DNA from: Lentimicrobiaceae bacterium
GTDB taxonomy: Bacteria > Bacteroidota > Bacteroidia > Bacteroidales > F082
Direction: 5' to 3'
DNA length: 64,000 nt
NCBI GenBank assembly: GCA_015061315.1
Contig: SUWV01000004.1
Span: 1-64,000, forward strand
Below the pieces are notes generated by a model. That model was not told where the DNA came from. It saw nothing but the letters and a program-made list of their open reading frames with translations, and did not search any database. Each line of letters starts with the position of its first letter. Positions within the stretch are counted from its first letter, which is position 1. Shown here in pieces: positions 8,228-48,048 of the stretch. The translations under genes and the position numbers were made by a program.

Positions 8228-9350
8228 TTGCTTTATCTTTTAACAACCATACTAATTCGTCATTTTCATCAGCCATTATATGTAGCATACCATTATGAAA
8301 ATATAAATCTACATTATTATAGGTGTGAAAAGTGATATCACTACTTCCCGTCATGTCATCATAAAAGTCTTGTGATTTGGCAATTCGCTCACCATCATTG
8401 TAGTTCCTTGATGCTTTCCTATATTTTGCGGTATAACTCCCCTTTAAGTTCTTTTCATATTGTAATAGCGATTTCTTCTTTGTTTCTGACTTTTCTAACT
8501 CTTGTTGAATCATACTTGCAGTATGTACATAGTCATCAATGGCTCCAGAAATAGCTTCATCATATTTTATGTCCTTGATTTTCTCTACAAAAGTATAACT
8601 GTCATAGTCACTATCCTTTATATCTGCCAGTTTTACTTTTGTAGGGAACACTGCAGTATTTTCCACCAATGTTTTTGTTACTTCTTCTACCTCTCGCGCA
8701 AAATCATTGTAAGTAATTCTCCAATTTTGATTTACAATGTCAGGGTTAAGTATATAACCAAACATAAGATTTATATATTTCCCCTTCTGTATATCGGGGA
8801 TCCCCTTTCCGTATTTTTCTTGAAGAGATTTATGGTATTGATTTCCATCCATACTAATGCTATCAATGTATAACATCTTTGTTATCTGAGATAGTCTCGT
8901 CGCATTTTTAACATCAAAAATGACATTCATGTATGTTGCTATATCCTTATCTTTTCTTTTGCGTGAGTCAAAATTCGTTTTGATATTTCTAAGGACTTCC
9001 ATCCTTTCAGATGGATTTTTCCTATTCCAATTCAACCATGCAGAATTAATAGACACTTTCTGAGTTGTAAGCAATACCAAAGATCCAAACTGCTCAATAG
9101 GAAACTCATCTCTCATCCAATTATAAATACTCTTCCATACATTCTTGTCTGTGTCCGTTAATGCTTTCTTATAAAGTTTTGATTCAATCTGTTTGCTATC
9201 GGACAGATTTCCCAATACAGAGACATCACCATATGTTTCTATATATGCAGATTGTCCTTCTTGCATTTCAAAGCACCTTTCTAATGCAACAAGAAATTGG
9301 AATAAAACGCCTTTAATAGGTGATGTTGAATCAAACTTTAGTTTTGACAT
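8220..9350 (-). CDS. ABC-three-component effector-like protein with putative N-terminal PD-(D/E)XK nuclease
   Basis: GVLFQFLVALERCFEMQ...IETYGDVSVLGNLSDSKQIESKLYKKALTDTDKNVWKSIYNW: D...ExK arrangement similar to Cap4/DUF4297-like nucleases. Confidence 0.6.
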   Translation of the reverse strand: MSKLKFDSTSPIKGVLFQFLVALERCFEMQEGQSAYIETYGDVSVLGNLSDSKQIESKLYKKALTDTDKNVWKSIYNWMRDEFPIEQFGSLVLLTTQKVSINSAWLNWNRKNPSERMEVLRNIKTNFDSRKRKDKDIATYMNVIFDVKNATRLSQITKMLYIDSISMDGNQYHKSLQEKYGKGIPDIQKGKYINLMFGYILNPDIVNQNWRITYNDFAREVEEVTKTLVENTAVFPTKVKLADIKDSDYDSYTFVEKIKDIKYDEAISGAIDDYVHTASMIQQELEKSETKKKSLLQYEKNLKGSYTAKYRKASRNYNDGERIAKSQDFYDDMTGSSDITFHTYNNVDLYFHNGMLHIMADENDELVWLLKDKANE

Positions 9351-9365
9351 TATTATGTGGATTTT

Positions 9366-14200: not shown

Positions 14201-14808
14201 TGTTTTTTATCTTCAAGAAGTTTGAGGAATTTAGCATATTGCGCTTTGTATCCATTGAAAAACTCTTTGTTGAGTCGTTCAACAGAGAATGCATCGGTAA
14301 CATCTGTTAAATAAATGGAGCCATAGGTCCTCTTATCAGCCAATTCTTTAAGTCGGCTTGCTGCTGTGGTACAAGGCTCGTTCTTGCCTAACAAGAATGT
14401 ATATCGTTTAGGAGCTGTTTCCTTCTTTACTAATTCTCCGCTTTCATTGAAATATGTCTGTTTGGCAATGAATGTCAAGCGATAGTCATTTAGGTTTTGC
14501 GAATAATAGAAAACCAAAGCTCCATGAATCAAGCCTTGATCTACATATTTTGCAGCAATATCGCGCAAACTTTTACGGTTGCGGGATATTTGCACATTGT
14601 CGGCTACCTCAAAGCGGAATATAGCCAATGAACGTCCGTCATCTAAACGGATGTTTCCTACATGACCACCATCTTTCACATGTGAATCTGTAATTTTAGC
14701 AACACTTGTAAAGATTTCGACTTTGGGGAAGATCTTTTCCAACAAATCTTTCCAGATATCAAAATCAAATTGTGCAGATAGTATATTTTTCAAATATGCT
14801 TGATTCAT
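11278..14808 (-). CDS. Eco57I-like restriction-modification methylase (class I SAM, N6-adenine type)
   Basis: 1176 aa; MLGHIFENLLEDNKDKGAFYTPKEIVQYM, VCDPAIGSGAFPMGIL, DIIIGNPPYIKEATDKNAFDGL. Confidence 0.92.
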   Translation of the reverse strand: MNQAYLKNILSAQFDFDIWKDLLEKIFPKVEIFTSVAKITDSHVKDGGHVGNIRLDDGRSLAIFRFEVADNVQISRNRKSLRDIAAKYVDQGLIHGALVFYYSQNLNDYRLTFIAKQTYFNESGELVKKETAPKRYTFLLGKNEPCTTAASRLKELADKRTYGSIYLTDVTDAFSVERLNKEFFNGYKAQYAKFLKLLEDKKQHRDYVKKMLGRLVFLQFLQKKGWMGVSATNENWEGGDKNYLANLIERYKGNDRILSDVLEPLFFETLNKERVGDIADCRLGDNIKIPYLNGGLFDKDKTDALDIDFPYSYFEDLMEFFNGYNFTIDENDPDDAEVGVDPEMLGHIFENLLEDNKDKGAFYTPKEIVQYMCRQSVIQYLKAHEADEKYSLAIERLINESVVEPVLQNKETATRFIELLKNVKVCDPAIGSGAFPMGILYVLYYALHHLQSHAEPNKSFDSTKTKRNIIQNNIFGVDIEQGAVDIARLRFWLALVVDADEPQPLPNLDYKITCGNSLLNRYALDTPLDNVFIEYNKDKNDDDKLSLAKYKQLVNDYTNTSNHAKKDLFRKTIEEIKKTFKTELSKKEINKIVSVKKDIYDLEQPNLFGEELTKTQKSELKKLKAKLEKLESEREDVLNNKVYEDAFEWRFEFPQLLDENGKFIGFDIIIGNPPYIKEATDKNAFDGLRNTEYYQGKMDLWYIFACKGIDLLKSNACLCYIATNNWVTNDGASILRNKIVSDVKIIQLIDFFDAMVFDSASIQTMIMLFQKDSVADNYFFDYRKVQQKHANKQVAINLLEKIHDDSNVYFMPLFNREHFSNQLLTFASTENDQILQLISNAKHILLNDQDGLKEISSGIDVLQDYVNKKSQQLLNNKKQIGDGIFVLSQQEYDSLNLNGNEKALVKPYYTSKQINRYSVCKKNSEWIIYTDSSTNDSISLYPNIQKHLDQFFKVITSVNKPYGLHRARKKESFEGEKILALRKCVNSPAFSYVNFDSFVSRAYLIIKTNRVNQKYLTGLLNSTLIKYWLKHRGKMQGANFQIDKEPLQQIPIVTPAINVQELIATIVDYVMIASSTKENLSELVSNETIASFFEKIIDGCVYELYFEEHMKEQEINIIDSSLELIKPITQLSSDKEKADMILDVFMNIKKTDNSIRNRLDLFTLRSPEILKLIIEG

Positions 14809-14820
14809 AATAATATTGTG

Positions 14821-17800
14821 TTAGATGTTAAAACTCTCTGAAATAATAATCTCAGGTATAAAATCTTTAGTCGTTTTGAGGACTTCCATCTGTTTGCCAA
14901 CACATTCACTTTGGACGTGTTCCAATGGATATCCTGATATAATCTTTATCAATTGCTCAAGTAAAACCACCGGCTTGACAGGTGTTTTCTTTGTTGCTGT
15001 TTTCAGTTTATTTATATCACGCTGCAACTGCTGGAACTTACCTGTTGTTATCGCTCGTTTCGCTTTATTTATCAATTCAAGTTCTTGTTCTGTGATGTTG
15101 GGAATACTGACAAAGCCATCGAGATATGCAATTGCCTTTTTCTCATTAGGACCTTGTGTAGGATTAACTTTCTGCTTTGCAGACTTGTTTTCCTCTTCTT
15201 GCATAGCGAAAGCATCGAGTGCAATTTTCACCTGTTCGTGGTGATTCCCATGTAATGGTATAGATTTCTCGTCAATACGGGCTTCAAACTCCTTGACAGC
15301 TTCCAGGAAAGTTAGCTCCTCAATAGTTCCGTCTTCTCTGACGAAGGTAAAGGCATCACGACGTTTGTTGCGTATAAACACTATAGTACTTCCTGGAATA
15401 AACTTGCTCTTGCGTCCAGTACGAGCCCGCAACGGCATTTTGCTGATACGTTTTATCAAATCAGGGTCATCCTGTTTAAGTTGTCTGAGCCACATCAGAT
15501 AGCGTAATTTCTCATCACGTTCCTCATCAACATCCTTATCAAAAAGACCAAAACTTTCAGGATTCTCGTCAGTGGAATATATCTGACTATCTTCGCCGAG
15601 CGCAGCATGGAATGCGAAGAGTTTCATTTTAGCTTTTTTCTCCAACTCAATATCATTATTCACTTTCGATGTCGGGAAGAAGTTAAATATATGTATTTCT
15701 TTTGCTGTGCTACCGATACGGTTCACACGACCGATACGCTGCATGAGTCTTGTCGAGTTCCAAGGAGTATCGTAGTTTACGATAACATTGGCACGATGGA
15801 GGTTTACTCCTTCGGCAAGTACCTCGGTAGAAATCACAATATCGTAGTCGTTTTTCTTTTCGCCTTTATAGTTTGCGTCAAAGTTCTCTTTCAGCAGAGA
15901 CATCTGCGAATCTCTATTATCGCTCTGCACAGTCATAATCTTGCCAAATCCATGACTTTTTAGAGAGTCATATAGATATTTGGTGGTTTCTTTTGATTCT
16001 GAGAATATGACTAACTTACCTTCGTGATTAATAGACTTGTCAAATAAAGTTTCTTCAAGATATTTGATAAACTCATTTAATTTAGGATCGACATCTACGG
16101 ATTCCCACTTAGAAACAAGTTCTTTGAGGATAGCATCGTCTTTCTCTACTCCTTCCTTAAAACCATATTCAAAATCATCGGGTGTACAAACCTCAATAGT
16201 CGGGTCGGTGTATTTTGCTTCTTCGATAAGTTTAATCAATTCATCTTCTTTACCTTCGCTAAGTAGCTCATTGACTTTCAGATTGGGAGCAATGTATATA
16301 GTACCATTGCTGAACATATCGAGCATAACCTTATTAGCCTCATAATATCGCCTCAGTGATTGTTTGAATGCATAGAAACTACTGTCTATTCGCTTGACAA
16401 GCAATGTCTTCATAATACCTGCCAACTGAATAGAAATCATATCAGCCTTCTTATACTTGCTTTTTTTATTTGCTTTAAGATATTTTATAGCTTGATATCT
16501 GTTGTATGAGAGCCCATCTTTCTTGTCGCTAAGACATCTGATGGTCTTATCATATAAATCTTCTAATTCAGAATCAAGTTGATAATAAATCTTACAAGGT
16601 GATTTTACATCTGGAAACTGTATATTTTGATTTTCCAAATCTTCGCGATAAGCGTCATTTTCTTTCAAGTCTTTGCGAGTACGACGTACTGTCAATGGTT
16701 CCACAACCTTGACGCGTATTTTTTCGTAGATAGCTTTAACTTCATCCGCTATGAGAACTATGTTTTTCTCCTTTTTTAATTTGTTATACTTGTCGATATG
16801 CTCACGGAAGAAACGCTGCAAATTACCTTCTTCCAAAGTACTGTCTTTAGAATCTTGAAATAGATAAACCAAATTTGCAATATCTTCAGGTTTGTTATTC
16901 AATGGTGTTGCTGATACGAGTATAAGCTTCTTATCGTGCAGACTGCCATCATAGCGTTTGGTCTTAGTCTTACACAATTTTTGTAATTCGTTATACATCG
17001 ATGCTGTATCGCTTCTGAATTTATGAGCCTCATCAACAATAATCAAATCATAAAGTTCCGGATTCTTTATCTTATGAAGACTTCCGTTAGTAATAACTTT
17101 AAAGTTGTCCAACTTAAACTCAGAAAGAGTCTCGTCCCAATTGTCTTTCATTGCAGGAGGCACAATCACCAATGTATGAGAGCGATGTGTTGGGAATCCG
17201 TTAGAGAAGAAGAATTTCTTTGCTATAAGAGCAGACACAACGGTTTTGCCTAATCCGACGACATCAGACAAGAAAAATCCGTTATGTTTCATCATTTTGG
17301 CATATCCATCATTAACTGCATCTATTTGATACGACAACTTTTTATAGCCTGGAGGTAAATCGGAGACAGAATTTGGGTCAAAATCAATGCTCTTTCCGAA
17401 GTATTCTAACAAGAACTTCAGATATACTTCATACGGAGTAAAGTTCGGATTAAGATACGAATCACTCTTTATCTTTTCTATGTGCGTTATGTCTATCTCC
17501 ACAGATTCTTCCCATAATCTTTCAAATGTTTCGGTAGCGAACTGTATATCGTCATCATATCTCAATTCTACATTGAACTCGAAGTTCTTTTCGAGTCCAG
17601 CTTCAGTTAAATTGCTAGAACCAGTGATAACAGAACCATAACCATGAGGATGATAAACTTCCTCACGGAATATATAAATCTTAGCATGAATGTTTTGTTT
17701 AGGATGGATGCGCATAGTTATTCTACCAGTTACAATATCTTCTATGAACTGATACATACCATCCTCAACTTCTTTGTCATATTTCGCTTCCTGTATGTTG

Positions 17801-18081
17801 CGCTTGATATCATTAAAGAACTCTTCCTGAGACTGCTCTGCATTAGGATTGAAAAGTAGCCCCTGCTGATTTGCTTGATAAGTGAGTTTATCTACATTGA
17901 TACCAACCAAAATGCGAATCATGGGAGTCTGTTGTATAAACTTCCTGATACGGAAATAGCCTGACGCTCGGAAATAACCTACAAGCGCATCAAAGAAATG
18001 CACTTTCTTATATTTAAAAACTCCTTCTATTTTTTCAAGAAGAGTATTTTCTTTTTCATTTGTGAAAAAGTTTGTTCCCAT
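14821..18081 (-). CDS. Phospholipase D-like / SNF2-type superfamily II helicase
   Basis: PLD-like HAKIYIFREEVYHPHGYGSVITGSSNLTEAGL; helicase DVVGLGKTVVSALIAKKFF, LIIVDEAHKF, QRIGRVNRIG. Confidence 0.92.
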   Translation of the reverse strand: MGTNFFTNEKENTLLEKIEGVFKYKKVHFFDALVGYFRASGYFRIRKFIQQTPMIRILVGINVDKLTYQANQQGLLFNPNAEQSQEEFFNDIKRNIQEAKYDKEVEDGMYQFIEDIVTGRITMRIHPKQNIHAKIYIFREEVYHPHGYGSVITGSSNLTEAGLEKNFEFNVELRYDDDIQFATETFERLWEESVEIDITHIEKIKSDSYLNPNFTPYEVYLKFLLEYFGKSIDFDPNSVSDLPPGYKKLSYQIDAVNDGYAKMMKHNGFFLSDVVGLGKTVVSALIAKKFFFSNGFPTHRSHTLVIVPPAMKDNWDETLSEFKLDNFKVITNGSLHKIKNPELYDLIIVDEAHKFRSDTASMYNELQKLCKTKTKRYDGSLHDKKLILVSATPLNNKPEDIANLVYLFQDSKDSTLEEGNLQRFFREHIDKYNKLKKEKNIVLIADEVKAIYEKIRVKVVEPLTVRRTRKDLKENDAYREDLENQNIQFPDVKSPCKIYYQLDSELEDLYDKTIRCLSDKKDGLSYNRYQAIKYLKANKKSKYKKADMISIQLAGIMKTLLVKRIDSSFYAFKQSLRRYYEANKVMLDMFSNGTIYIAPNLKVNELLSEGKEDELIKLIEEAKYTDPTIEVCTPDDFEYGFKEGVEKDDAILKELVSKWESVDVDPKLNEFIKYLEETLFDKSINHEGKLVIFSESKETTKYLYDSLKSHGFGKIMTVQSDNRDSQMSLLKENFDANYKGEKKNDYDIVISTEVLAEGVNLHRANVIVNYDTPWNSTRLMQRIGRVNRIGSTAKEIHIFNFFPTSKVNNDIELEKKAKMKLFAFHAALGEDSQIYSTDENPESFGLFDKDVDEERDEKLRYLMWLRQLKQDDPDLIKRISKMPLRARTGRKSKFIPGSTIVFIRNKRRDAFTFVREDGTIEELTFLEAVKEFEARIDEKSIPLHGNHHEQVKIALDAFAMQEEENKSAKQKVNPTQGPNEKKAIAYLDGFVSIPNITEQELELINKAKRAITTGKFQQLQRDINKLKTATKKTPVKPVVLLEQLIKIISGYPLEHVQSECVGKQMEVLKTTKDFIPEIIISESFNI

Positions 18082-18090
18082 ATTCCTTTA

Positions 18091-18104
18091 TTTAAGCGCT
18101 TAAA
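18091..18104. promoter_or_regulatory. Perfect palindrome TTTAAGCGCTTAAA just upstream of the seven-gene operon start codon
   Basis: 14-bp perfect palindrome, about 10 bp before the helicase ATG. Confidence 0.5.
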
Positions 18105-18217
18105 CAGTTGTAAAAGTAATATTAATATTCTTCCACAAATTTATGAATAATTATCTGATTCCTTAAATTTATTCAGAAAAAAATAATGGATTTTTATCAA
18201 CAATCCTTTTTTTAAAG

Positions 18218-18380
18218 TTTAGAGTTCATAGTTTAGAGCAATTTTAGAGTTGAGAGTTTTATAGTTGAATGATGTCTAAAGTCTAAAGATGAAAGTCTAA
18301 AGGATTGTATAAATGCTTACAGCTCACGTCTCATAGCTCACAGCAAAACCTTAAACTTTAGGCCTTAAACTTTAAACCAA
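18218..18380. repeat. Intergenic 7-mer type low-complexity tract (AGTTTAGAG / GTCTAAA / GCTCACA units)
   Basis: Runs such as agtttagagttcatagtttagag, gtctaaagtctaaagatgaaagtctaaagg, agctcacgtctcatagctcacagc. Confidence 0.7.
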
Positions 18381-18388
18381 AACACTAT

Positions 18389-18508
18389 TGTCTTAAAATC
18401 CTTTAACATCTCTCCCACTCTTTCATTAACATCTACGTTAAAAATTGTTAAAATCGAAATATTTCCTTTACAAATGCTTGACAAATGTAAGGTGATGGTT
18501 TAATTTTG
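18389..18508 (+). promoter_or_regulatory. Shared upstream module copy 1 with TAnnTTTG -7 box (18501-18508)
   Basis: AACATCTCTCCCACTCTTTCATTAACATCTACGTTAAAAATTGTTAAAATCG...CTTGACAAATG...TAATTTTG; same module at 45679 and 48060. Confidence 0.7.
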
Positions 18509-18538
18509 CAAGGAGAATTAACCAAAGTTTATGATGTT

Positions 18539-18886
18539 ATGACTGCACTTATTAAAATTGATGGCGAGTATGCCAACTGGATTAAGGATTTTTTCAAAAA
18601 CTTAAGTCGTGATTTACAGAATGCGCTACCTGGAGCCAGAGGGTTCTCTGAAAAGAATTTATATTACATGAAACTAATGTATCTTCTTTATAGAGAATGC
18701 TTTGAAAAGTTCCCACAAGATGTGGGAAAAATCGGCAATCATAATTTATTTAACCCTGATGATTTATTCTCTATATCATGGAGTCACCATCGTTACATTA
18801 TCGACAAATGTAAAAAAGATACTGACAAGGCTCTTTTCTATGTGAGAAAAACTCTTGAAAACAATTGGTCTCGTAATATATATTGA
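18539..18886 (+). pseudogene. DUF1016/YhcG-family remnant with internal deletion and truncated C-terminus
   Basis: MTALIKIDGEYANWIKD/FFKNLSRDLQNALPG versus paralog at 47008 (...WIKDLSLRFKQSQIKAAIRVNSEMLRFYFNLGADIVNKKAESRWGDGFFANLSRDLQNELPG); ends after KTLENNWSRN. The track start at 18506 is a TTG inside the promoter. Confidence 0.85.
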
Positions 18887-19093
18887 TGGTTTCTTTTTTT
18901 CTGTATCTCTTTAAAAACTCTAACGACTTATTGAGAATTGCAATTATCCTTTAATCAGACGAATTTAAAATTACAACGATTTGTTGGAATGGTCTAAACA
19001 AATCTGCTTTAATCAACTGTTCTAAATCTAACATTAAAATTTTTCTTATTTAAATATTATCATCTTTCAAAAAATAATTGTACCTTTACAATC

Positions 19094-20365
19094 GTGATTA
19101 ACCAATTAATTTTTAATGTTATGGATAATGCTAAACTAATATCAGAATATGGTCTTCCATTGGAAGTAGAACTCAGCACTCAGATTTATAACGCCTTGCA
19201 GGGTAATGTCGTTGAAGAGATCATCAAAATGGCTAAGATTCCTTTCTCGGATAATTATTACCGTAGCATGCTCGAAGGTCATAGCTTCAAGGTAGAAGAA
19301 GGCACTCTGTCGCGCTACTACAACATATTCAATGAGATAAAAGAGACGCTGCAGTTTACAGAGCCTGTCGATTTCTACATCACCGGCGACCCTTCTGTCA
19401 ATGCTTTTGCCATCGCTTCTCAAGAAGAGGGCGAACCTAATATCATCAACGTAAACTCTTCTCTCATACAGCTTATGACCGACGATGAGTTACGTTTCGT
19501 CATCGGTCACGAGATGGGACATCTCATCAATAAAAACGCTACTCTCGTGAAACTCATCAACTTCGTCTTCCCTCATGGCGCTACTATTCCTATCACGCTT
19601 CAATATAAAATCAGACTTTGGCAGCAGCTCTCTGAACTCGTCGCCGACCGCTTCGGCTATATGGCGATGCCTAACCTTAACGTCTGCATCTCTGCTTTCT
19701 TTAAGATGTCGTCGGGCTTGGATTTCAACAAGATGGACATGAAAGTGGAGGCTTTCCTCGAAGATAACAAAAAACGCTTGGAATATTTTCGTAACGACAA
19801 AGGTATCAACTTCGCGACACATCCTATCAATCCTATCAGAGTGGAGGCTTTGAACCAATTCTCTAAAAGTGTGTTCTTCAACGAGAAAGGTACAAGTAAG
19901 GAGGACCTCGAAAACGGCATGAACGAGTTAATAGAAATATTATTAAAGGTGAGAAACACTGAACTCGACTCTAATATGGCGAAGTTCATCGCGACAGCCG
20001 GCTTGATAATAGCCAACTGCGACGAGAATATCAGTGAAAACGAAATCGACTTGATATTCAGCGAGCTGTCGGTCTTGGAGATCTTCCCTAAGACTTATTT
20101 GGAAGATATCGCTCAGAGCGACGTGGTGGAGACTTTCAAGGAATCTATCAAGAAACTGCTTGAATTGAATCCTGAGACAAGAGAGGCGATGCTGAGATAT
20201 TTGATTTCTATCGCTTTGGCTGACAAAGACATCAACGTCAAGGAAGTGGAGTTGATTTTCAATATCGCTGCAGGTGAACTCGGCTACTCTCCTATGGAGA
20301 CGGCTCAAATCTTCTCGCAGATGATTCAAATAGATTTCACCCCAAGTATGAATGCGCTATGTTAA
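19094..20365 (+). CDS. M48-family metallopeptidase with C-terminal TerB-like domain
   Basis: RFVIGHEMGHLINKN (HExxH) and ELVADRFG; C-terminal GLIIANCDENISENEIDLIFSEL...LALADKDINVKEVELIFNIA. Confidence 0.85.
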   Translation: MINQLIFNVMDNAKLISEYGLPLEVELSTQIYNALQGNVVEEIIKMAKIPFSDNYYRSMLEGHSFKVEEGTLSRYYNIFNEIKETLQFTEPVDFYITGDPSVNAFAIASQEEGEPNIINVNSSLIQLMTDDELRFVIGHEMGHLINKNATLVKLINFVFPHGATIPITLQYKIRLWQQLSELVADRFGYMAMPNLNVCISAFFKMSSGLDFNKMDMKVEAFLEDNKKRLEYFRNDKGINFATHPINPIRVEALNQFSKSVFFNEKGTSKEDLENGMNELIEILLKVRNTELDSNMAKFIATAGLIIANCDENISENEIDLIFSELSVLEIFPKTYLEDIAQSDVVETFKESIKKLLELNPETREAMLRYLISIALADKDINVKEVELIFNIAAGELGYSPMETAQIFSQMIQIDFTPSMNALC

Positions 20366-36707: not shown

Positions 36708-36819
36708 CTCCAAGGCGGCAGGGAGCGTCCTGGATTTAAAAGTTGAGATTTGAAAACTGAAAGTTGTTAATTGCAAACTGTTAATTGTAAATTGTACATT
36801 GTTAATTGTCAATTATTTT

Positions 36820-36947
36820 GGGCGTTCCGGCTATCGCCGTCGGGCTTTCCGCTATATCTTTGCTCGCTCAACCTCCACCCCGCTTCCAAAATCCCGTCCC
36901 CGTTCCCAAAAGAAGCTCGCAAAGGATGCCGCTCCAATCCCTAACGC
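36820..36947 (+). repeat. Dispersed hairpin element family A, copy 4, with expanded second loop
   Basis: Second stem changed to CTTTGC (36858-36863) / GCAAAG (36919-36924) around a roughly 55-nt apical insertion. Confidence 0.88.
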
Positions 36948-37020
36948 ATGGAGGCTGCTATAAAAGTGAAAGGGTAAAATCAGACAATAAGGGATTAGGA
37001 AAAAACATTCAAATATCAAG

Positions 37021-38099: not shown

Positions 38100-38618
38100 T
38101 TACTTATTATTTGTTAAGCTATTTTTCAAAGCAATACCCTTTGCTGTGAGACGATATTTCTGATATTGACTATTAGGCTTATCTGGAATAGTAAGTTCTA
38201 TATAACCATTACTAATAGCAGGATTCAAATAATCAGTTCTAAAATAATCTCTATTCTTGATAGATAGTAATTCTTGTAATTCAGAACGTCCCATCTCTCC
38301 TATCAATGCATAAACAAGTTTCTCAACTTGCGCACTTGCATGGTCACTTGCATGGTCACTTGCATGGTCATGAGCACTAATAGGCAAAGTAATGCGTATG
38401 AAGTTGTCGGTAAACTTGAAGCAATCTTCACCGTATGCACGCAAGATACGAGGAATGCCGGAGCCTAACGACTCCACCAACTCCACATCACGGTAGATAT
38501 CAATTCCAAAATAGATGTATCCGCCCTCCTTGTAGTTAAGGAACGCCACAACCTCCTTCTCAATATCAAGTTCAGGAGTTAATTATCTTTTATATTCTAT
38601 GCGGTTGGTTTCAGTCAT
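38100..38618 (-). pseudogene. AlbA_2/RecG-like ATP-binding protein remnant
   Basis: Upstream in-frame MTETNRIEYKR*LTPELDIEKEVVAFLNYKEGGYIYFGID (TAA at 38583-38585), then fused directly to IYRDVELVESLGSGIPRILRAYG, so the middle is deleted. Confidence 0.82.
38333..38371 (-). repeat. In-frame 12-bp tandem repeat (DHAS)3
   Basis: CACTTGCATGGT x3 encodes HDHASDHASDHASAQVEKL ahead of the C-terminal HTH. Confidence 0.85.
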
Positions 38619-38653: not shown

Positions 38654-39385
38654 TTAAACTAGTTCATTATCTAGTTTACACATCAACATACTGGCAAAAT
38701 GTAATTTTCTAATAGCATCTGCTTTTGATAATGTTTGATTGCTATGAGCTTTGGGGTTTCTTATGCCAATCATTGCTCCCACAAACATTTCCATATATCC
38801 TTGTTGTACATTTGTACCTGTTTCAGTTGAAATATCTCCTAATTTTATTATTGGATTTTGAGGAGAAAATGCCGATTGCATTAATTTTACACCATCTTTT
38901 TCAATGGATGTCCTATTCTTATAAATTCCTTTAACTCTAGTATTTACTTCCTTAAATGCAGCTTCTACTGCATCTGCATAATAACTATCATCAAAACGAC
39001 CTTTAGCGACTGAAACTATCTGTGGGTGTATATTGTCCCAAAAAGATGATGAATTATTATTACTATATCCATTTAGATAGGCAATAGTTGCAATAACTTC
39101 ACCAAACAAATATGGGTTAATGCCATTTTGAGGCGTAGATAATGGTTGCCCAAATTGATTCACAGAAATAAAATCAGGCATTTTAAGATTAGGTAATATT
39201 TTGTCTCTAAGCCTATCACTAAATACTTTATATTCTACTGGAACCAAAGGTATCAATTTATACAACTCATTGTATAGCTCAGTGCAACTAATATTATTGC
39301 TTTGAATGTGTTGCATATTGATCATATGACGGATACGATCAATAATCTGTTTACAGATTTCTAATTGTGCTAAATATCTGTCCAT
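38654..39385 (-). CDS. TIGR02391-like protein (Abi-associated family)
   Basis: NIHPQIVSVAKGRFDDSYYADAVEAAFKEVNTRVKGIY...GYMEMFVGAMIGIRNPKAHSNQTLSKADAIRKLHFASMLMCKLD. Confidence 0.78.
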   Translation of the reverse strand: MDRYLAQLEICKQIIDRIRHMINMQHIQSNNISCTELYNELYKLIPLVPVEYKVFSDRLRDKILPNLKMPDFISVNQFGQPLSTPQNGINPYLFGEVIATIAYLNGYSNNNSSSFWDNIHPQIVSVAKGRFDDSYYADAVEAAFKEVNTRVKGIYKNRTSIEKDGVKLMQSAFSPQNPIIKLGDISTETGTNVQQGYMEMFVGAMIGIRNPKAHSNQTLSKADAIRKLHFASMLMCKLDNELV

Positions 39386-40212
39386 TATTCTAATTGTTTT
39401 CTATAAACTGAATCTAAAGTATTACCTTCTTTATCTTTCCATTCTATCCAACCGTTTGCAGAACGACCCAAACAAAAACATGCAGCAGTACTTGGACTTG
39501 TAAAAGTTTTATCCGATGTCATTATTATTTTACCATCTTCTATAGCTGAATATTCTTGAAGCATCTTTTCCCTATGCTCGATTCCTTTAAAAGAAGATGT
39601 TGTGTTTTGTGCTATGACACTTCCTTTCAATACAGTAAAGCCATTTGAACTATAGAAACCTTTTGCATTACATCCACGACCAGTGGCGTAAAACAAATGT
39701 TCTTTTTCCTCTTGTACCACTTCAAATATGTTACAACCGACAAACGCTGCCAAAAACTTCACATCCTCAAAGAACTCATCCATTGAGTCTTTCTGATATT
39801 CAGGCAAGTTTGGAGCTTTGGGAGTTTGTTTGTTGTCGTTCAATACAAATGTGTTTGCATTTTTAGCTTCTGATATTGCTTTGTATTCTAAATACTGAAC
39901 ATCAGCTTTTGTCATATCTGCGTCTTTTGAAACAAAAATGAGTGCTTTTTGCCAAAATGACTTCTTGCTATCGTGATCTTTAACACGCTCACGGAAGTTC
40001 TCTGTTTCACCTATATATGCTTGCGGTTTTGTCATTTCATCTTCGCCAAGTAATATGTAAAACGCTGGTTTCTGTAGTTTATCCTGCGTATTAAGATATG
40101 CAAGATTCGAGCGTGGCACAACAAACATCTGGCAAATCTTGTTGCTGATGAATGCGTATTGAGTTCCTTTCGGATCTCCATCAATTAAGTATGTGGTTAC
40201 TGTTTTGCCCAT
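39385..40212 (-). CDS. GIY-YIG nuclease family protein with C-terminal DUF4357
   Basis: PAFYILLGEDEMTKPQAYIGETENFRERVKDHDSKKSFW and SDKTFTSPSTAACFCLGRSANGWIEWKDKEG. Confidence 0.85.
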   Translation of the reverse strand: MGKTVTTYLIDGDPKGTQYAFISNKICQMFVVPRSNLAYLNTQDKLQKPAFYILLGEDEMTKPQAYIGETENFRERVKDHDSKKSFWQKALIFVSKDADMTKADVQYLEYKAISEAKNANTFVLNDNKQTPKAPNLPEYQKDSMDEFFEDVKFLAAFVGCNIFEVVQEEKEHLFYATGRGCNAKGFYSSNGFTVLKGSVIAQNTTSSFKGIEHREKMLQEYSAIEDGKIIMTSDKTFTSPSTAACFCLGRSANGWIEWKDKEGNTLDSVYRKQLE

Positions 40213-40223
40213 AATGTATTTAG

Positions 40224-41900
40224 TTATATAGTGATGGTTTCATTTATCTTTGCCTTATCAAAAGATGTAAATTTCAGTAACAGTCCCTCTTTGTTTATTG
40301 TTCCAACTATGCGACTCATAGAAGAATTGATGGTTGTTGCTGATAATGTTTTGATTATTGTAAACGACTTTCTCGAAGGTTCTTTTTTTACTATAATAAT
40401 ACCACCACGCATTGTTTTAATCGTGGTTAATAGCATTTTATTTTGATTTCGGGCATTCACAATAAAGAATCCGTTTTCATTCTCCTCAATAAAATATTTG
40501 CCAGAATTAAAAGGTTTGCTTTTAATTGAAAAATGAGAAATGATATCAGGCTTATGAGTGGAAATATCTTCTGTCGGGATAACAGGAATTACAGTAGATA
40601 TTTCTTCTACTACCTCTTCGACAACTTTAGGTATTTCTAAATCTTGTATAAGGATCATTTCCTCGTTGCCTTCGCTCAAATCTGTTTCCACATACTCTCT
40701 TAAGTTACCATTGTTGCGAGAATATCCTTTTGTAGAAGAGGTTTCTTTATCTTCTCCATAGAAGAAAGACTCCCAATCTCGTTCCTCATCAGGCAGACCA
40801 AAGCGAGAGTACATACCTACGTTATCAAGTATTATACACTTCTTATCACCATTCTTTCGCAAACCTCTTCCGACTTGTTGTATGTATTTGACTAATGATT
40901 TTGTAGGTCTTGCTAATTGAATAAATTCAATATCAGGGCAATCAAAACCTTCTGAGAAAATATCAACATTTACAATAATATCAATTTCTCCATTTCTAAA
41001 AGCTTTTATAACTTTTTCTCTGACCTTTGCAGGAGTCTTGCTATCAATATTTTCAATTGCTAAACCGCGATTGCGATATTGCAAGCATATGTGCTCACTA
41101 TGTTCTCTTGAGATGCTATAAATAATACCTTTCTTGCCTAAGACATTTTTTTCATAACTATCATAAAGCTGAGCTCGAATCTTTGATGTATCACACACTT
41201 CTACCAATGCACTGTTCTTATAATCACCGTCTATATCAAATTCCCTAATAGACTCAATAGATTTGACAAGTTCGGAACTTGTAGGAATAGAATAATATTG
41301 ATATGTTGCCAACCATCCTTTTTGTATAAAATCCTTAATTGACATAGAAGGAATATACGCATCAAAGATTTGTGCAAAACCACTATTATTCATTCTCCAA
41401 GGGGTTGCAGTTACGCCCAACTTTTTAGCATCAGGGCAATACTCCCATAATTTCTGATATGAATTTGCAACTGCGTGATGAGCTTCATCTATGATTATAA
41501 AGTCAAATTTCAGATCATCTATCATACATTGATTAGCAGGATGTGTGATGGTTTGAATAGAGGCTACTTGTATAGCTTGAGTCAAATCACGCTTATCCAT
41601 CATCGTGCCAGCTAGCACACCATGTTTAATGCGATATTTATCTAGGCTACGAGAACTTTGCTCGATCAATTCACTACGATGAGCTATGATTAATATACGA
41701 TAATTAATATTATGTCTTAATCCCCAAATGCTTATATCACGGATAATAGATGTAAATAATCGAGTTTTGCCAGTTCCTGTTGGCATCTGATATAGGATAT
41801 TGTCAACACAATTCCACTTGCTAAAGATCTCCTCTTTGGCAAATTGCTGATAATCACGCAATGTGATATCATTTTGACAAAACTCGTTATAATCAATCAT
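40224..41900 (-). CDS. DEAD/DEAH-box superfamily II helicase
   Basis: QMPTGTGKTRLFTSII, FDFIIIDEAHHAVANSYQ, VTATPWRMNN, QQVGRGLRK. Confidence 0.92.
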   Translation of the reverse strand: MIDYNEFCQNDITLRDYQQFAKEEIFSKWNCVDNILYQMPTGTGKTRLFTSIIRDISIWGLRHNINYRILIIAHRSELIEQSSRSLDKYRIKHGVLAGTMMDKRDLTQAIQVASIQTITHPANQCMIDDLKFDFIIIDEAHHAVANSYQKLWEYCPDAKKLGVTATPWRMNNSGFAQIFDAYIPSMSIKDFIQKGWLATYQYYSIPTSSELVKSIESIREFDIDGDYKNSALVEVCDTSKIRAQLYDSYEKNVLGKKGIIYSISREHSEHICLQYRNRGLAIENIDSKTPAKVREKVIKAFRNGEIDIIVNVDIFSEGFDCPDIEFIQLARPTKSLVKYIQQVGRGLRKNGDKKCIILDNVGMYSRFGLPDEERDWESFFYGEDKETSSTKGYSRNNGNLREYVETDLSEGNEEMILIQDLEIPKVVEEVVEEISTVIPVIPTEDISTHKPDIISHFSIKSKPFNSGKYFIEENENGFFIVNARNQNKMLLTTIKTMRGGIIIVKKEPSRKSFTIIKTLSATTINSSMSRIVGTINKEGLLLKFTSFDKAKINETITI

Positions 41901-44236
41901 TAGAATTCCTCAGTAGGTGCTAAACTTTGTAATATCGATTGCATTTCATTAACCTCTGCTTGTGATAGAGGTCTTCCTTTAGTGGTAGTCCATGCTTTAC
42001 TGAATGCAATAAGGTCATTTATCCATTTCAGTTTGTCAGTCTTTGTTCTAAATGAATCTGACACCTGTATCGCAAACTCATCCTCAAATGTAACGAATGA
42101 CTCATCATCCTCTTTCTTTACACTCCAGTTACTTTCAATAATTTCTTTGTAATCCTGTAATGTCATTAGGTCTGTCCAATCTTGGTTGTCAACATCCTCA
42201 TCGTCACCCATGCGCTGAAGACATTTGCCCATAATCTTTTTTACCTTACTCTCCCAGATGCTTCCGTATAGTTCTTCAAGTTTTCTGAGAATGGTCTCTT
42301 TTATGTGTTTTTCAATCTGGTGGCCATACTCTTTTCCTTCCTCTTGCAAGTCTTTATCCTGTGTTTCAAGCCAAGCTTCTAGGCCTTCTGGATTATATTC
42401 AGACATCTGTTTGTGAATGGAATTTTGATACATTCGAAGCCATAGAGTATCCGCACCTTGACCTTTGATTAAGCGAATTTGCGTTTGTTCATCTATCGGC
42501 ATATTGCACAAATAATTGATTAGCACATCAAAATATGGAGCCATTGCATCTACCTGCTCTTTGGTGCTAGATTTTTGCGATAACTTCTCACTTCTGATTA
42601 GACTCTCATTTAAAGATGCAATTAAAGAAACGAAAGCATATGTACCGCGATTACACTCAATAAAGGTCTCATATTCTTCTTTATGCTCATTGATCATTTT
42701 GTAATAAACATAAGCATAGCAATCCTTTATTAAATTCGATATTCGTTTCTGTGCATCCAACATTGCTTTGTTATGCTCAACGCAGTTAGTGTTGTATAGA
42801 CAAACATCCGTATGATCTGTAAATTCTTTCTTGGTCGCTTTAGGTAGCAGTGATGATTTAGACAGCGCTGTATCAAATGGCTTTAATTGCAGTTTCGCAG
42901 TATCTTCTCCAATTGCAATCTTGCGGGCCAAAACACTGCTATTATCCCTGCCAAGTTGTTTAATAATGGATGAACGCAACGCCTTTAAACGCGAATCCAA
43001 ATGTGGAGACTCCCAGTTCAAATCCTCGTTTAAATCCAAACGCAAGCTCGGGCTAACAGCCTTTTGATGCTCATTGATATCCATAAATATTCTGAGCTGT
43101 TCATCTGATGGCAAACCATCAAAAGCTACTACAGGGATCGTATTCGTATCTTTATATTTTGAGCCTGCGTAACCATATACGCGATGTTGGCCATCTATGA
43201 TATATGCAATGCAATAGGCGTTCGGAATGGTAAGGTATCCTAATTTTGTTCTCGTATCATCAGATCCGCCAGAAGCCAAATCAAACTGAATCCTATTTTT
43301 CCTCTCAGAATCATCAAAATTGATAATTACAGAGTTAGGAAAGTATCCATTTTTCTTATCAATAAATTCCCCAATACCCTTCAATCGAGAAGGTACAAGC
43401 AACCTCTGATATGTTGGCATAGTGATTTGCGTATTGACTCTTGTTCGATGCAACACAAAGCCAATCTTTAGCAGTGTGGCTGGCTCGATAGAAAGCATAT
43501 AATACGTGTGACCACCCATAGTACCTTTTAATGCCGGGATACGAATTTTATCATTATTGATGCGTTCGTGTCGGAACATCAAACCATAAAATTGGTATAT
43601 AACAGTTGAGTTATATGCCTTTATGAGACTATTCACATAGTCGTATGTATTGTCAGTAAACTGGAATATCTTATTTTCTGCCAATCTCTTCTCGTCCTCA
43701 CATCCCTCTGCAAATGTGTAATTGCGTGTCGCAAAAATAAACTTAACCTTTTTGTCCTCTCCGTATATTTGACGCAAAGCCTTCATTACACCATCCCTAT
43801 ATAAGCGCATATCGTCTATATCTTTTTTGAATGATGCGGGCTTAATGTTTTCAGTGGCCTTACACTCAACAACAAATATAGCTTCTTCGCCAATAGCAAC
43901 AACATCAAGTTGATGTTTATCTCCTGGATTTTCTCCCCAAGGAATCTCTAACTTCTCATCATAATTAAGATGTCTAAAGCCAAGATTATAAAACATACAC
44001 CAAATATCATCCTCAAATCTTACTCCTGCAGGTTTGAGTTTTTGGATCTTTGCCTTATATTTTGTTCGAGAAACTTCTTCCCATCCTTCATTAACATAAT
44101 CTTCTAGCTCATTGATTAAAATACTTTGTGTGAAGTATGGGTTCTTTTTTGCTTTAAATTTTTTCGTTAACATGGACTCATCATGAGTCATATGTTCCTT
44201 AATTGCTTGAATCTGCGAGATAGTCAAAGAAGCCAT
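41900..44236 (-). CDS. DGQHR-domain (DndB-like) protein with N-terminal PD-(D/E)XK-like nuclease
   Basis: N-terminal KHQLDVVAIGEEAIFVVECKATENIK; central YIIDGQHRVYGYAGS...FDGLPSDEQLRIFMDINEHQKAVSPSLRLDL. Confidence 0.85.
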   Translation of the reverse strand: MASLTISQIQAIKEHMTHDESMLTKKFKAKKNPYFTQSILINELEDYVNEGWEEVSRTKYKAKIQKLKPAGVRFEDDIWCMFYNLGFRHLNYDEKLEIPWGENPGDKHQLDVVAIGEEAIFVVECKATENIKPASFKKDIDDMRLYRDGVMKALRQIYGEDKKVKFIFATRNYTFAEGCEDEKRLAENKIFQFTDNTYDYVNSLIKAYNSTVIYQFYGLMFRHERINNDKIRIPALKGTMGGHTYYMLSIEPATLLKIGFVLHRTRVNTQITMPTYQRLLVPSRLKGIGEFIDKKNGYFPNSVIINFDDSERKNRIQFDLASGGSDDTRTKLGYLTIPNAYCIAYIIDGQHRVYGYAGSKYKDTNTIPVVAFDGLPSDEQLRIFMDINEHQKAVSPSLRLDLNEDLNWESPHLDSRLKALRSSIIKQLGRDNSSVLARKIAIGEDTAKLQLKPFDTALSKSSLLPKATKKEFTDHTDVCLYNTNCVEHNKAMLDAQKRISNLIKDCYAYVYYKMINEHKEEYETFIECNRGTYAFVSLIASLNESLIRSEKLSQKSSTKEQVDAMAPYFDVLINYLCNMPIDEQTQIRLIKGQGADTLWLRMYQNSIHKQMSEYNPEGLEAWLETQDKDLQEEGKEYGHQIEKHIKETILRKLEELYGSIWESKVKKIMGKCLQRMGDDEDVDNQDWTDLMTLQDYKEIIESNWSVKKEDDESFVTFEDEFAIQVSDSFRTKTDKLKWINDLIAFSKAWTTTKGRPLSQAEVNEMQSILQSLAPTEEF

Positions 44237-44270
44237 ATTAAATTCATTTATTTGTTAACACTACGATATA

Positions 44271-45179
44271 TTAGTAATTCATAATGAGTAATTCTATTTC
44301 CTTTTCCCGTTTCCCTGCATGAGCATTTATGAAACGATGGGCTAAAATTTGATTGATATTATACGTATTATATAATTTGACAAAATATAATTCTCCATTA
44401 TCGTCTAACGATTTTGAATTACTTAGCATAATCTTACATCCTTCTTGGGTTAATCTATCACAATAAGCTTTCAGTTTTTCCTGCTCTGCGTCATCAAATA
44501 CATTATGTGTATACTCAATAAAGCATGCTGAACCAGAGAGCGGTCGATATGGTGGATCGATATAAATAAAGTTGTACTTTCCACCTAAACGATTTGTGAT
44601 ATTTTGATATCCTCCAACATATATATCTACCTTCTGCAACGCCTTGTGGTCTGTCATAATGAGTTCTTCGTCACAAATGTTAGGATGATCATATTGGCCA
44701 AATGGCACATTGAATTTTCCACTAGTATTGACCCTATAAAGACCATTAAAACAAGTCTTATTAAGAAATATAAAACAAGCTGCCCGCTTTTCTTTTGTCA
44801 GTTCTTCATTATTATACTTCTCTCGTATTTGATAATAGTACTGCGATTTTGTTTCTATGGTAGTTAGTCGATAATACTCTTCTTTTATTTCCCGTAATGA
44901 TGCTATGAGTTTTTCAGGGTCATTTTTTATTAACAAATAACAATTTATCAAGTCCTCATTAACATCATTAATTACAGCTCGTTTTATGTTAGGGTAATGT
45001 ACTAACATATAAAAGAGCATGGCACCACCTCCAACAAAGGGCTCAATATAAGTCACATTTTGCTGTTTCTCAAAGTCCTGTGGCAAGTACTCTACAAGTT
45101 GACTTATTATAGAACCTTTACCACCAGCCCATTTCACGAATGGCTTAGCAACAGCTCTGTTAATTTGTTTTTTTGACAT
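44271..45179 (-). CDS. DNA adenine methylase, D12 class (Dam family)
   Basis: KPFVKWAGGKGSIISQLVEYLP, TYIEPFVGGGAMLFYML, NFIYIDPPYRPLS. Confidence 0.94.
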   Translation of the reverse strand: MSKKQINRAVAKPFVKWAGGKGSIISQLVEYLPQDFEKQQNVTYIEPFVGGGAMLFYMLVHYPNIKRAVINDVNEDLINCYLLIKNDPEKLIASLREIKEEYYRLTTIETKSQYYYQIREKYNNEELTKEKRAACFIFLNKTCFNGLYRVNTSGKFNVPFGQYDHPNICDEELIMTDHKALQKVDIYVGGYQNITNRLGGKYNFIYIDPPYRPLSGSACFIEYTHNVFDDAEQEKLKAYCDRLTQEGCKIMLSNSKSLDDNGELYFVKLYNTYNINQILAHRFINAHAGKREKEIELLIMNY

Positions 45180-45502
45180 ATATCAAAAACAATCTATTCT
45201 TTTTTTATAATTTTTAAGTTCTTCTTATCCTCTAAATAGAAAACATATTGGTTATTAAGAAATGAGAATTACATTCACAAAGAAAATTAATATCTTACGC
45301 TCAAATCTAACCTTCTTTTAATTGCAAATTTAAAAAAATATTATAAAACTATAATATCTCTTAAAAAATATTTCTTTGCTACATTATTTGTAATTCTAAG
45401 TTTGTTTTAAATGATTAAAATAATTATTAAAACATTTAGCACCATAATTATCATTTGTAAACTATTAATCATACCCATCATTTTCTATTCAGTAGCCGTC
45501 CT

Positions 45503-45585
45503 GCGTTAGGGATTGGAGCGGCATCCTTTTGGAGCGTAGCGGAAAAAGACATAGCGGAAAGCCCGACGGCAGAGCCGGAACGCCC
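45503..45585 (-). repeat. Dispersed hairpin element family A, copy 5 (reverse orientation)
   Basis: Reverse complement reads GGGCGTTCCGGC-TCT-GCCGTCGGGC...CTTTTTCCGCTACGCTCCAAAAGG...CCCTAACGC. Confidence 0.9.
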
Positions 45586-45678
45586 AAAGTCAATTCATAA
45601 TTGAAAGTTTAAAGTATTTAAGTTTTAAAGTTTATTTACTCAGATCTCAAGCCCAAAGTCCGTTGTCTATTGTCTATT

Positions 45679-45805
45679 GTCTATTGTCTTAAAATCCTTT
45701 AACATCTCTCCCACTCTTTCATTAACATTTACGTTAGAAATTGTTAAAAACGTGATTTTGTCGGGGAAAAGTATTGACAAAAGGAATGGGATTGTTGTAA
45801 CTTTG
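45679..45805 (+). promoter_or_regulatory. Shared upstream module copy 2 with TAACTTTG (45798-45805)
   Basis: AACATCTCTCCCACTCTTTCATTAACATTTACGTTAGAAATTGTTAA...ATTGACAAAAGGAATGGGATTGTTGTAACTTTG. Confidence 0.75.
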
Positions 45806-45837
45806 TGAGAGAGAATATTACCAAAATTTATGATGAT

Positions 45838-46971
45838 ATGAGTAGTGATAGAAAAGATTCCGAACAGGATTTATCGCAATATGTTTCAGCGGTAAAAGAG
45901 ATTAAAAACGCTATACTTGACAGCCGCTATCGTGTGGCAAGACAAGCTAATAAAGAGGTGCTGCAACTTAACTATGGCATTGGCAGGTTTATATCTGTTA
46001 ATAGCAGATCTGCAAAATGGGGAAGTAACGCCATAACAGTGATTTCTAAAATGCTTCAACAGGAATTGCCTGGATTAAAAGGTTTTTCAGAAGCAAGCAT
46101 AAAGATGATGAGAATCTTCTATGAAGAATGGTGTCACATATTCGAAAATCGTCAATTGGCAATTGACGATTTAGGTAATCCAATAATTGATAGTATATCA
46201 AGTGATAACATAAGGATAGAAGAATTTGATACGGATAAATTATCAGAATCAGATTTGTCTTATTTTTTAAATGTCGGCTTTACCAACCATTACATAATAA
46301 TCAGCAGAACCACAACATTAGAAGAACGACTTTATTATATCCGACGATGTGCCACTGAATTTTGGAAGGTGGAGACAACGAAGTATTATCTTAAAGAAGA
46401 TCTTTATCACAAGGAAGGTAGCATTCAGCAGACTAACTTCGAGAAAACCATTGAAGAATCTGATTTTAAAAGGAGAGCTTTACAATCGTTCAAAGAGGAA
46501 TATCAACTTGATTTTATCAACACTGAGGATATAAGCGAAAAGGTCATCGAACAACAGGTGGTGCTGAATATCAAGAATTTCATCATGGCGTTCGGTCCAG
46601 AGTTTACCTTTATGGGAAATCAATACAGATTAGAAGTTTCCGGAAAAGAATTCTTCATCGACTTGCTTTTCTTTTCGCGTCGCTTGAAATCGCTTGTCGC
46701 TTTTGAATTGAAACGTGGAGAATTCAAACCTGAATATACTGGAAAAATGAACTTCTATCTCGCGGCATTAGATAAATATGTTAAACTTCCTGACGAGAAT
46801 CCTTCTATCGGAATAATTTTATGTAAAAGCAAAAATGAGGAAATCGTGGAATTGTCTTTCTCCGATACTTCAAAGCCAATGGGAGTTGCGACATTTAGGA
46901 CTTCGCAAGAACTGCCAAAACGTTTCAGAAAGGCTTTGCCAAATATAGAGGATTTGAAGAAGTTGTTATAA
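45838..46971 (+). CDS. DUF1016/YhcG-family PD-(D/E)XK nuclease-like protein, intact
   Basis: VLQLNYGIGRFISVNSRSAKWGSNAITVISKMLQQELPGLKGFSEASIKMM...YRLEVSGKEFFIDLLFFSRRLKSLVAFELKRGEFKPEYTGKMNFYL. Track start at 45805 is a GTG overlapping the -7 box; ATG at 45838 is preferred. Confidence 0.9.
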   Translation: MSSDRKDSEQDLSQYVSAVKEIKNAILDSRYRVARQANKEVLQLNYGIGRFISVNSRSAKWGSNAITVISKMLQQELPGLKGFSEASIKMMRIFYEEWCHIFENRQLAIDDLGNPIIDSISSDNIRIEEFDTDKLSESDLSYFLNVGFTNHYIIISRTTTLEERLYYIRRCATEFWKVETTKYYLKEDLYHKEGSIQQTNFEKTIEESDFKRRALQSFKEEYQLDFINTEDISEKVIEQQVVLNIKNFIMAFGPEFTFMGNQYRLEVSGKEFFIDLLFFSRRLKSLVAFELKRGEFKPEYTGKMNFYLAALDKYVKLPDENPSIGIILCKSKNEEIVELSFSDTSKPMGVATFRTSQELPKRFRKALPNIEDLKKLL

Positions 46972-47007: not shown

Positions 47008-48048
47008 ATGGGAAAGTTAATTAAAATTGATGGCGAATATGCCAATTGGATTAAGGATTTAAGTTTACGTTTTAAGCAGAGTCAGATCAAAGCGGCAATC
47101 AGAGTCAATAGCGAGATGCTGAGATTCTATTTTAATTTAGGTGCCGATATTGTTAACAAGAAAGCCGAGAGTCGTTGGGGCGATGGTTTCTTTGCCAATT
47201 TAAGTCGAGATTTGCAGAATGAATTGCCTGGCGTAAAAGGGTTTTCTGAAACAAATTTAAGATATTCAAAATATTTCTATCTATTATATAATCAAACGCT
47301 TACAATTCATCCCCAAGTTGGGGACGAATTTGGTGTTTTTAAGATTCCTTGGGGTCACCACAAATATATCATCGACAAATGTAAGAAAGATACAGACAAG
47401 GCTCTTTTCTATGTCAGAAAAACTCTTGAAAACAATTGGTAGCGAAGTGTCTTGCTGAATTTTTTAGACACTGATTTGTACGAGCGACAAGGTAAGGCTG
47501 TTAGTAATTTCAAAAATACTTTGCCAGAAGTGAACAGCGATTTGGCGCAACAATTGGTGAAGGATCCTTATTGTTTTGACTTCGCTTCATTGACTGACCG
47601 TTATAACGAAAAAGAATTAAAAGATGCTCTCGTTAAAAACATAGAGAATTTCCTCATTGAATTGGGTAACGGTTTCGCTTATATGGGACGGGAATATCGT
47701 ATTGAAGTCGGCAATACGGAGTTGTTTGCTGATATGATGTTCTACAACACTGTTTTACATTGTTACGTAGTCATAGAAGTAAAAACAAAAAAATTCGAGC
47801 CTTCGTTTTTAGGACAACTTAGCGGTTATGTCTCATGCGCCAATCATGTTCTGAGAAGAGATGGCGATAATCCCACAGTAGGATTGCTGATTTGCAAGGA
47901 TAAAGATGACGTGATGGCTCGTTATGCTCTTGAAGGTTATAACAATCCGCTTGGTATTTCAGAGTATGAGTTATCGAAGTTGTTCCCTCAAGATTTCAAA
48001 AGCACCTTGCCAAGTATCGAAGATCTTGAAAAGGAACTTGAAGATTGA
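47008..48048 (+). pseudogene. DUF1016/YhcG paralog interrupted by one amber codon
   Basis: ORFs 47008-47442 and 47452-48048 are in the same frame; ...KTLENNW*RSVLLNFLDTDLYERQGKAV with TAG at 47440-47442. Confidence 0.85.

Follow-up and report, generated by a model that had tools for sequence, protein, structure and literature searches.

A five-gene operon in a defence-island setting

We analysed a stretch of 64,000 nucleotides (hereafter, the window) from the genome of a gut-type Lentimicrobiaceae bacterium. An initial annotation had proposed five contiguous minus-strand genes in one part of it, and both the open reading frames and the family calls hold when compared with profiles: five intact genes span 38654-45179. 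The features of this operon are the following.

44271..45179, minus strand: D12 N6-adenine DNA methyltransferase, DpnM/Dam-like; first gene of the operon
41900..44236, minus strand: 778-aa nuclease - ParB/DGQHR - (degenerate) HEPN protein; core partner of the methylase
43712..44035, minus strand: predicted PD-(D/E)XK nuclease domain of the 778-aa protein (approximately residues 68-175; D111, E124-C125-K126)
43037..43564, minus strand: ParB-like DGQHR domain of the 778-aa protein (approximately residues 225-400; TIGR03187, PF14072)
43181-43195, minus strand: DGQHR motif of the 778-aa protein (residues 348-352)
41903..42355, minus strand: C-terminal helical domain of the 778-aa protein, Swt1-like HEPN homologue that lost RxxxxH (PF18731 in relatives)
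40224..41900, minus strand: SF2 DNA helicase/translocase, RadD-/SauUSI-like helicase module (ResIII and Helicase_C)
39385..40212, minus strand: GIY-YIG nuclease with DUF4357 (RAMA-like), putative accessory cargo (PADLOC candidate PDC-S14)
38654..39385, minus strand: Ymh-family HEPN protein (RNPKAH, Rx4H), putative accessory cargo (PF09509)

From the methylase onwards, successive genes are separated by 34 bp, a 1-bp overlap, 11 bp, and another 1-bp overlap. All five are under purifying selection: compared with the nearest relatives, dN/dS is 0.03-0.09 (DGQHR gene), 0.06-0.13 (methylase), 0.07 (helicase), 0.03 (GIY-YIG), and 0.24 (Ymh). Genes of the YhcG and RhuM families, identified by profile matches, lie upstream of the operon on the opposite strand, a typical defence-island setting.

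The surroundings also contain repeats and remnants. A dispersed intergenic repeat of about 120 bp, with 40 matching stretches in the genome, is found in the window at 45491-45610, 36804-36959, 34552, 31646, 2902, and 56247; copies in opposite orientation flank the operon-bearing segment (36.8-45.6 kb). Another intergenic repeat, of 47 bp (AACATTTACGTTA...), occurs at 45724, 48095, and 49274; it precedes the YhcG gene and the RhuM gene, and a further copy is at the RhuM end. A second YhcG/DUF1016-type gene (47008-48048) is split by a stop into two open reading frames, and an intact copy adjoins it at 45805-46971. On the other side of the operon, the open reading frame at 38100-38549 resembles an internally deleted AlbA_2/Fic-like_C remnant, represented by two open reading frames in the related locus L002 (10003-11369).

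Domains of the 778-aa protein

The initial annotation had described the 778-aa protein as the fusion of an N-terminal D...ECK nuclease with a DndB-like DGQHR domain. Its assignment to the DGQHR family passes the profile search comfortably (TIGR03187, 119.5 bits for a cut-off of 58.85), and Pfam DndB (PF14072) matches it at 5e-15 (56 bits, cut-off 29). The protein contains the DGQHR, QR, and FxxxN motifs of the family, and DGQHR, YQR, and FxxIN are invariant in all 29 full-length members of the set described below. No solved structure resembling the DGQHR family was found by sequence, and the matches of the structural model to ParB-N/PadC folds in Foldseek are weak (probability 0.4-0.6).

The nuclease is below the Pfam threshold (NERD, 19.1 vs 22.1 bits), and the fold search with a first structure model (9 alignment rows, pLDDT 62) gave no usable match. 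A second AlphaFold model, made after adding relatives from viral contigs (17 rows, pLDDT 85), has an N-terminal alpha-beta-beta-beta-alpha-beta unit in which D111 and E124-C125-K126 are on adjacent strands. Foldseek matches this model to the PD-(D/E)XK nucleases Cdn1, Can2, and Card1 with probabilities of 0.99-1.00 and E-values of 0.0016-0.017, none of which reaches 0.001. The pattern D-x12-ECK is conserved in 23 of 26 methylase-linked relatives, and the remaining three have QCK, TCK, or ECR at the nuclease site. The fold match and the conserved motif together bear out the proposed nuclease.

The C-terminal part is a third domain, absent from the initial annotation and homologous to the Swt1-like HEPN (RNase) family. 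The profile PF18731 matches it at 1.3e-5 in L023 and at 8e-4 in L011, below the Pfam cut-off. Outside the clade whose operons encode the helicase (see below), 17 of 19 members have the R-x4-H motif of HEPN domains; inside it, none of the 10 does. An early version of this correlation (8/8 vs 0/10) had suggested, as a strict rule, that the helicase replaced the HEPN; the rule is broken by L037 and L038, which have neither the motif nor the helicase. Because the helicase was gained in a single event, the pattern provides no statistical test.

A D12 methylase accompanies the DGQHR protein in most of the family

We assembled a family of 29 full-length proteins, including the one in the window. The scan of species genomes provided nine relatives (46-97% identity, all Bacteroidales), whole-genome searches provided eight (five Bacteroidales, and three belonging to further orders of the class), the scan of viral contigs with an alignment query provided nine (25-38% identity), and plasmids provided two alphaproteobacterial members. 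The window protein alone as a query had no match in the viral contigs, where the alignment did, and DNA queries from two distant relatives had none in E. coli genomes. Among 60 genomes of the window's genus, only the window's own carries the module, which is therefore rare and probably mobile.

A D12 methylase gene adjoins the DGQHR gene, or is one gene off, in 26 of the 29 members, all of these being Bacteroidota or viral-contig loci. It is upstream in the Bacteroidota loci and in L037, L038, L041, and L042, and downstream in L040, L043, L044, and L045; in L007 the contig ends within it, and in L037 it is split into two open reading frames. By comparison, a D12 methylase occurs in 1 of 19 control loci of nuclease-less DGQHR proteins, some of which are near-duplicates and some short. 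The divergence of the methylases correlates with that of the DGQHR proteins (Mantel r 0.76, 0 of 2000 permutations), although common ancestry alone would also raise r. Other genes are occasional: a DUF7226 winged-helix gene between methylase and DGQHR gene (L006, 4829-5272; L007, 388-831) and an upstream gene for a 650-aa HTH protein (L033, L034). Judging from these gene neighbourhoods, in which homologues pair with D12 methylases and are not linked to dnd or dpd genes, the conserved unit is the methylase with the nuclease–DGQHR protein, and the helicase is specific to one clade.

Methylase specificity and the DpnII operon context

The window's methylase matches MethyltransfD12 (PF02086) at 2e-55 and TIGR00571 (dam) with 266 bits; its FxGGG and DPPY motifs are undamaged, and a search of the window's genome revealed no second D12 methylase. 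Its closest solved structure is that of DpnM (2dpm, 176 bits), followed by E. coli Dam (119 bits), and it shares with DpnM the FNGLYRVN...NVP region and most residues of the recognition region. This makes specificity for GATC plausible in the window's clade; "Dam-guided", as the initial annotation had put it, is an inference. We also considered the avoidance of GATC (87 sites in the window, 256 expected), but the counts are also low in loci of genomes in which we detected no copy of the module and are thus uninformative. Members L022-L024 and others have a shorter D12 subfamily starting with FLRWAGGK, so a single specificity cannot be assumed across the family. There is some swapping between the two subfamilies (L022/L024, L032/L035), which fits poorly with a strictly sequence-matched restriction-modification (R-M) pair.

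The methylase and DGQHR genes of L032 and L035 are separated by one for the DpnII restriction endonuclease (PF04556, 1e-95). An N6_N4 methylase gene follows the DGQHR gene, at once in L035 and after a short interval in L032. The arrangement is that of a DpnII-type operon into which the DGQHR gene was inserted. The endonuclease has no match in the window's genome and, among the relatives, is found only in these two loci. The module resembles the DpnII/MboI type II systems (dpnM-dpnA-dpnB) in its DpnM-like methylase and in the position of the DGQHR gene between those of DpnII and the N6_N4 methylase in L032 and L035. It differs from them in the window, where DpnII is missing and the partner of the methylase is the nuclease-ParB/DGQHR-HEPN protein, with a helicase.

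In L032 and L035, where DpnII is at hand as a restriction enzyme, the DGQHR protein would have an accessory role at most. The main rival of the interpretation that we favour, an R-M-type module with the DGQHR protein as effector, is a guard of another R-M system, as PrrC guards EcoprrI. The DGQHR protein would then be a back-up effector (DNase, HEPN RNase, or both), triggered when a phage disables methylation or the resident restriction system. The insertion into the DpnII operon, the swapping of methylase subfamilies, and the HEPN motif, which 17/19 members outside the helicase clade retain in active form, fit this role, and HEPN-ParB fusions are interpreted in this way in a survey of HEPN domains (PMC3710099). 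Yet, most loci show no other restriction enzyme beside the methylase, and the window's clade lost the HEPN motif but retains that of the PD-(D/E)XK nuclease. We regard a guard role as unlikely, if worth keeping in mind.

Helicase, GIY-YIG, and Ymh genes

The helicase matches ResIII (2e-29), Helicase_C, and the PADLOC profile mREase_IV (8e-36); its matches in the PDB include 7clg, which we take to be SauUSI (113 bits), and RadD (68 bits). It is found only in the window's clade, in 10 out of 10 members (the window and L002-L010). This clade is monophyletic (support 97/97), and the helicase joined the module once, within it.

The best matches of the helicase are methyl-directed type IV enzymes. 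One could thus regard the DGQHR protein as a modification-dependent nuclease, as in GmrSD, with a methylase that is incidental or otherwise protective. Type IV enzymes require no partner methylase, and yet one is linked to the family in 26/29 members. The relation between DGQHR and the ParB-like domain of GmrS (PMC4619093) favours the type IV interpretation, and GmrSD also has its ParB-like DUF262 domain fused to, or paired with, a nuclease. That nuclease is HNH instead of PD-(D/E)XK, the motif is DGQQR instead of DGQHR, and there is no partner methylase; Pfam scans revealed no HNH (GmrD) domain in the operon. We thus find a type IV-like activity very improbable.

The next protein has a marginal GIY-YIG match (22.8 bits, cut-off 22.6), a DUF4357 domain (68 bits, 5e-19), and a RAMA match below its cut-off (1e-6), and it corresponds to PADLOC PDC-S14 at 3e-85. 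The last one matches Hypoth_ymh (PF09509/TIGR02391, 104/68 bits; PF09509 4e-30), a family placed among the HEPN RNases in the HEPN survey (PMC3710099). Among the relatives, these two genes follow the helicase only in L002. L003 and L004 match the window over just three genes (40231-45180), and of 198 Bacteroidales genomes 18 contain GIY-YIG homologues, with the four copies inspected away from the module. We therefore reject the single five-gene system of the initial annotation: conservation delineates a two-gene core, a helicase in one clade, and GIY-YIG and Ymh genes that move separately. The latter two are late, independently acquired cargo.

Comparison with named systems

The locus shares with the Dnd and Dpd systems a DGQHR/ParB-like domain (DndB, DpdB) encoded beside a DNA-modifying enzyme. 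It differs in the enzyme, here an N6-adenine methylase, and in the fused nuclease and HEPN. The profile searches found no dndC, dndD, dndE, or dpdA-like gene in the operon, no match to dndC (TIGR03183) in the window's genome, and no second DGQHR gene in it. The 778-aa protein scores far below the cut-offs for DndB-type proteins (TIGR03233, 34 bits vs 328; TIGR04172, 83 vs 450) and for the DpdB equivalog (NF041060, 58 vs 300). With relatives that pair with D12 methylases, this agrees with the earlier proposal of a DGQHR locus outside the phosphorothioate and 7-deazaguanine settings.

PADLOC-DB 2.0 has no dedicated profile for the 778-aa protein, only partial matches to DpdB (63 bits; 62-90 bits in relatives). 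The operon matches no named system, either there or in the literature searched; the latter, which excluded most subscription papers and preprints, also contains no description of a methylase-linked nuclease-DGQHR module. The closest precedent is in the 2013 HEPN survey, which lists a Swt1-type HEPN fused to ParB, Saro_3948 of N. aromaticivorans, among fusions described as "mostly active"; in the part available, it is a table entry, and neither a nuclease at the N-terminus nor an operon with a methylase, an embedding in DpnII operons, or a clade with a helicase is given (PMC3710099). The plasmid pNL1 of this species carries member L011, with ParB/DGQHR and Swt1-type HEPN domains, and Saro_3948 most likely belongs to our family. 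What appears to be new here is thus the methylase-linked module, the ParB–HEPN fusion having been listed in 2013. The BREX-related Hma/DUF499 systems (PMC12839542) also combine an adenine methylase, a helicase, and an NTP-binding protein, with HEPN fused in many, but the window has neither DUF499 nor the BrxC ATPase, its methylase is of another family, and its putative NTP-binding domain is ParB-like instead of AAA+.

A putative restriction-modification-type module

We favour, with a probability of about 0.55, the interpretation of the locus as an R-M-type anti-phage module: the methylase would label self DNA, and the nuclease–DGQHR protein would be a nucleotide-gated restriction effector. The pair probably represents a type of anti-phage restriction system that has received little study. 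The D12 methylase, predicted to have GATC-like specificity in the window's clade, would mark and protect the host DNA. The ParB/DGQHR domain would bind a nucleotide and sense DNA lacking the mark, or another signal of infection, and thereby gate the fused PD-(D/E)XK nuclease, the presumed restriction effector. In most of the family, the C-terminal HEPN RNase may act as a last-resort suicide arm, like PrrC. With its degenerate HEPN arm and a RadD/SauUSI-like helicase gene downstream, the effector of the window's clade probably works as a DNA nuclease assisted by that helicase. Two further effectors, GIY-YIG/DUF4357 and Ymh-HEPN, would have been acquired separately.

Several lines of evidence support this interpretation: the excess of methylase linkage over DGQHR-only controls, the correlated divergence of the two proteins, the embedding in DpnII operons, the conserved nuclease motif with its fold match, and the monophyly of the helicase clade together with purifying selection and the defence-island setting. 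It is also consistent with the binding of ATP and GTP by a DndB-like protein (PMC12704722) and with HEPN domains fused to R-M nucleases, and never to methylases, that are proposed as suicide arms in the HEPN survey (PMC3710099). It is weakened by the altered nuclease sites of three methylase-linked members and by the weak ParB-fold matches in the PDB.

DGQHR domains beyond this module

Nuclease-less DGQHR genes also neighbour modification enzymes. In 12 of 15 viral-contig loci, some of them near-duplicates, an N6_N4 methylase gene is directly upstream of such a gene (located at about 8001 in most of L047-L058). Three nuclease-DGQHR members have a radical-SAM partner gene and lost the nuclease lysine (ECR, ECR, ECT). 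Together, these loci suggest that DGQHR domains partner DNA modification enzymes generally, beyond sulphur and deazaguanine marks.

Such neighbourhoods, from DndB and DpdB to D12 methylases, N6_N4 methylases, and radical-SAM enzymes, also fit a role in controlling or assisting the modification enzyme, of the kind proposed for DndB and DpdB. In that case, the DGQHR protein would be an ATP-dependent regulator or assembly factor with a secondary nuclease, as the radical-SAM-linked members without the lysine might indicate. D12 methylases such as Dam and DpnM work without a partner, however, and the methylase-linked members conserve the ECK site under strong purifying selection. This role therefore seems to us quite unlikely for the protein of the window, and we retain the interpretation as a restriction effector.

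If so, the range of DGQHR/DndB-like proteins would come to include ordinary N6-adenine methylation, in addition to marks based on sulphur and deazaguanine, and a widespread, poorly understood domain would acquire one testable role, that of a nucleotide-gated reader of DNA marks. We tentatively envisage that DGQHR/ParB domains are general nucleotide-gated partners and that this family is a separate class (D12 methylase and PD-(D/E)XK–DGQHR–HEPN) with an exchangeable effector arm, mostly an RNase suicide arm but here a helicase-assisted DNase, and with a radical-SAM branch marking DNA by some other chemistry; this broader scenario is possible but doubtful. For work at the bench, the two-gene form of the module is conveniently small, and nature provides versions of its effector with a HEPN and with a helicase that can be compared.

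The radical-SAM gene is found with one or two DGQHR proteins in L011 (pNL1, 8857-19173), L012 (5185-15573), and L039 (7968-11493), which are possibly another DGQHR-linked DNA modification system. The active site of the nuclease-DGQHR member is degraded in all three, and on the two plasmids (L011, L012), HATPase genes and a PIN_8 gene are also beside the radical-SAM and DGQHR genes.
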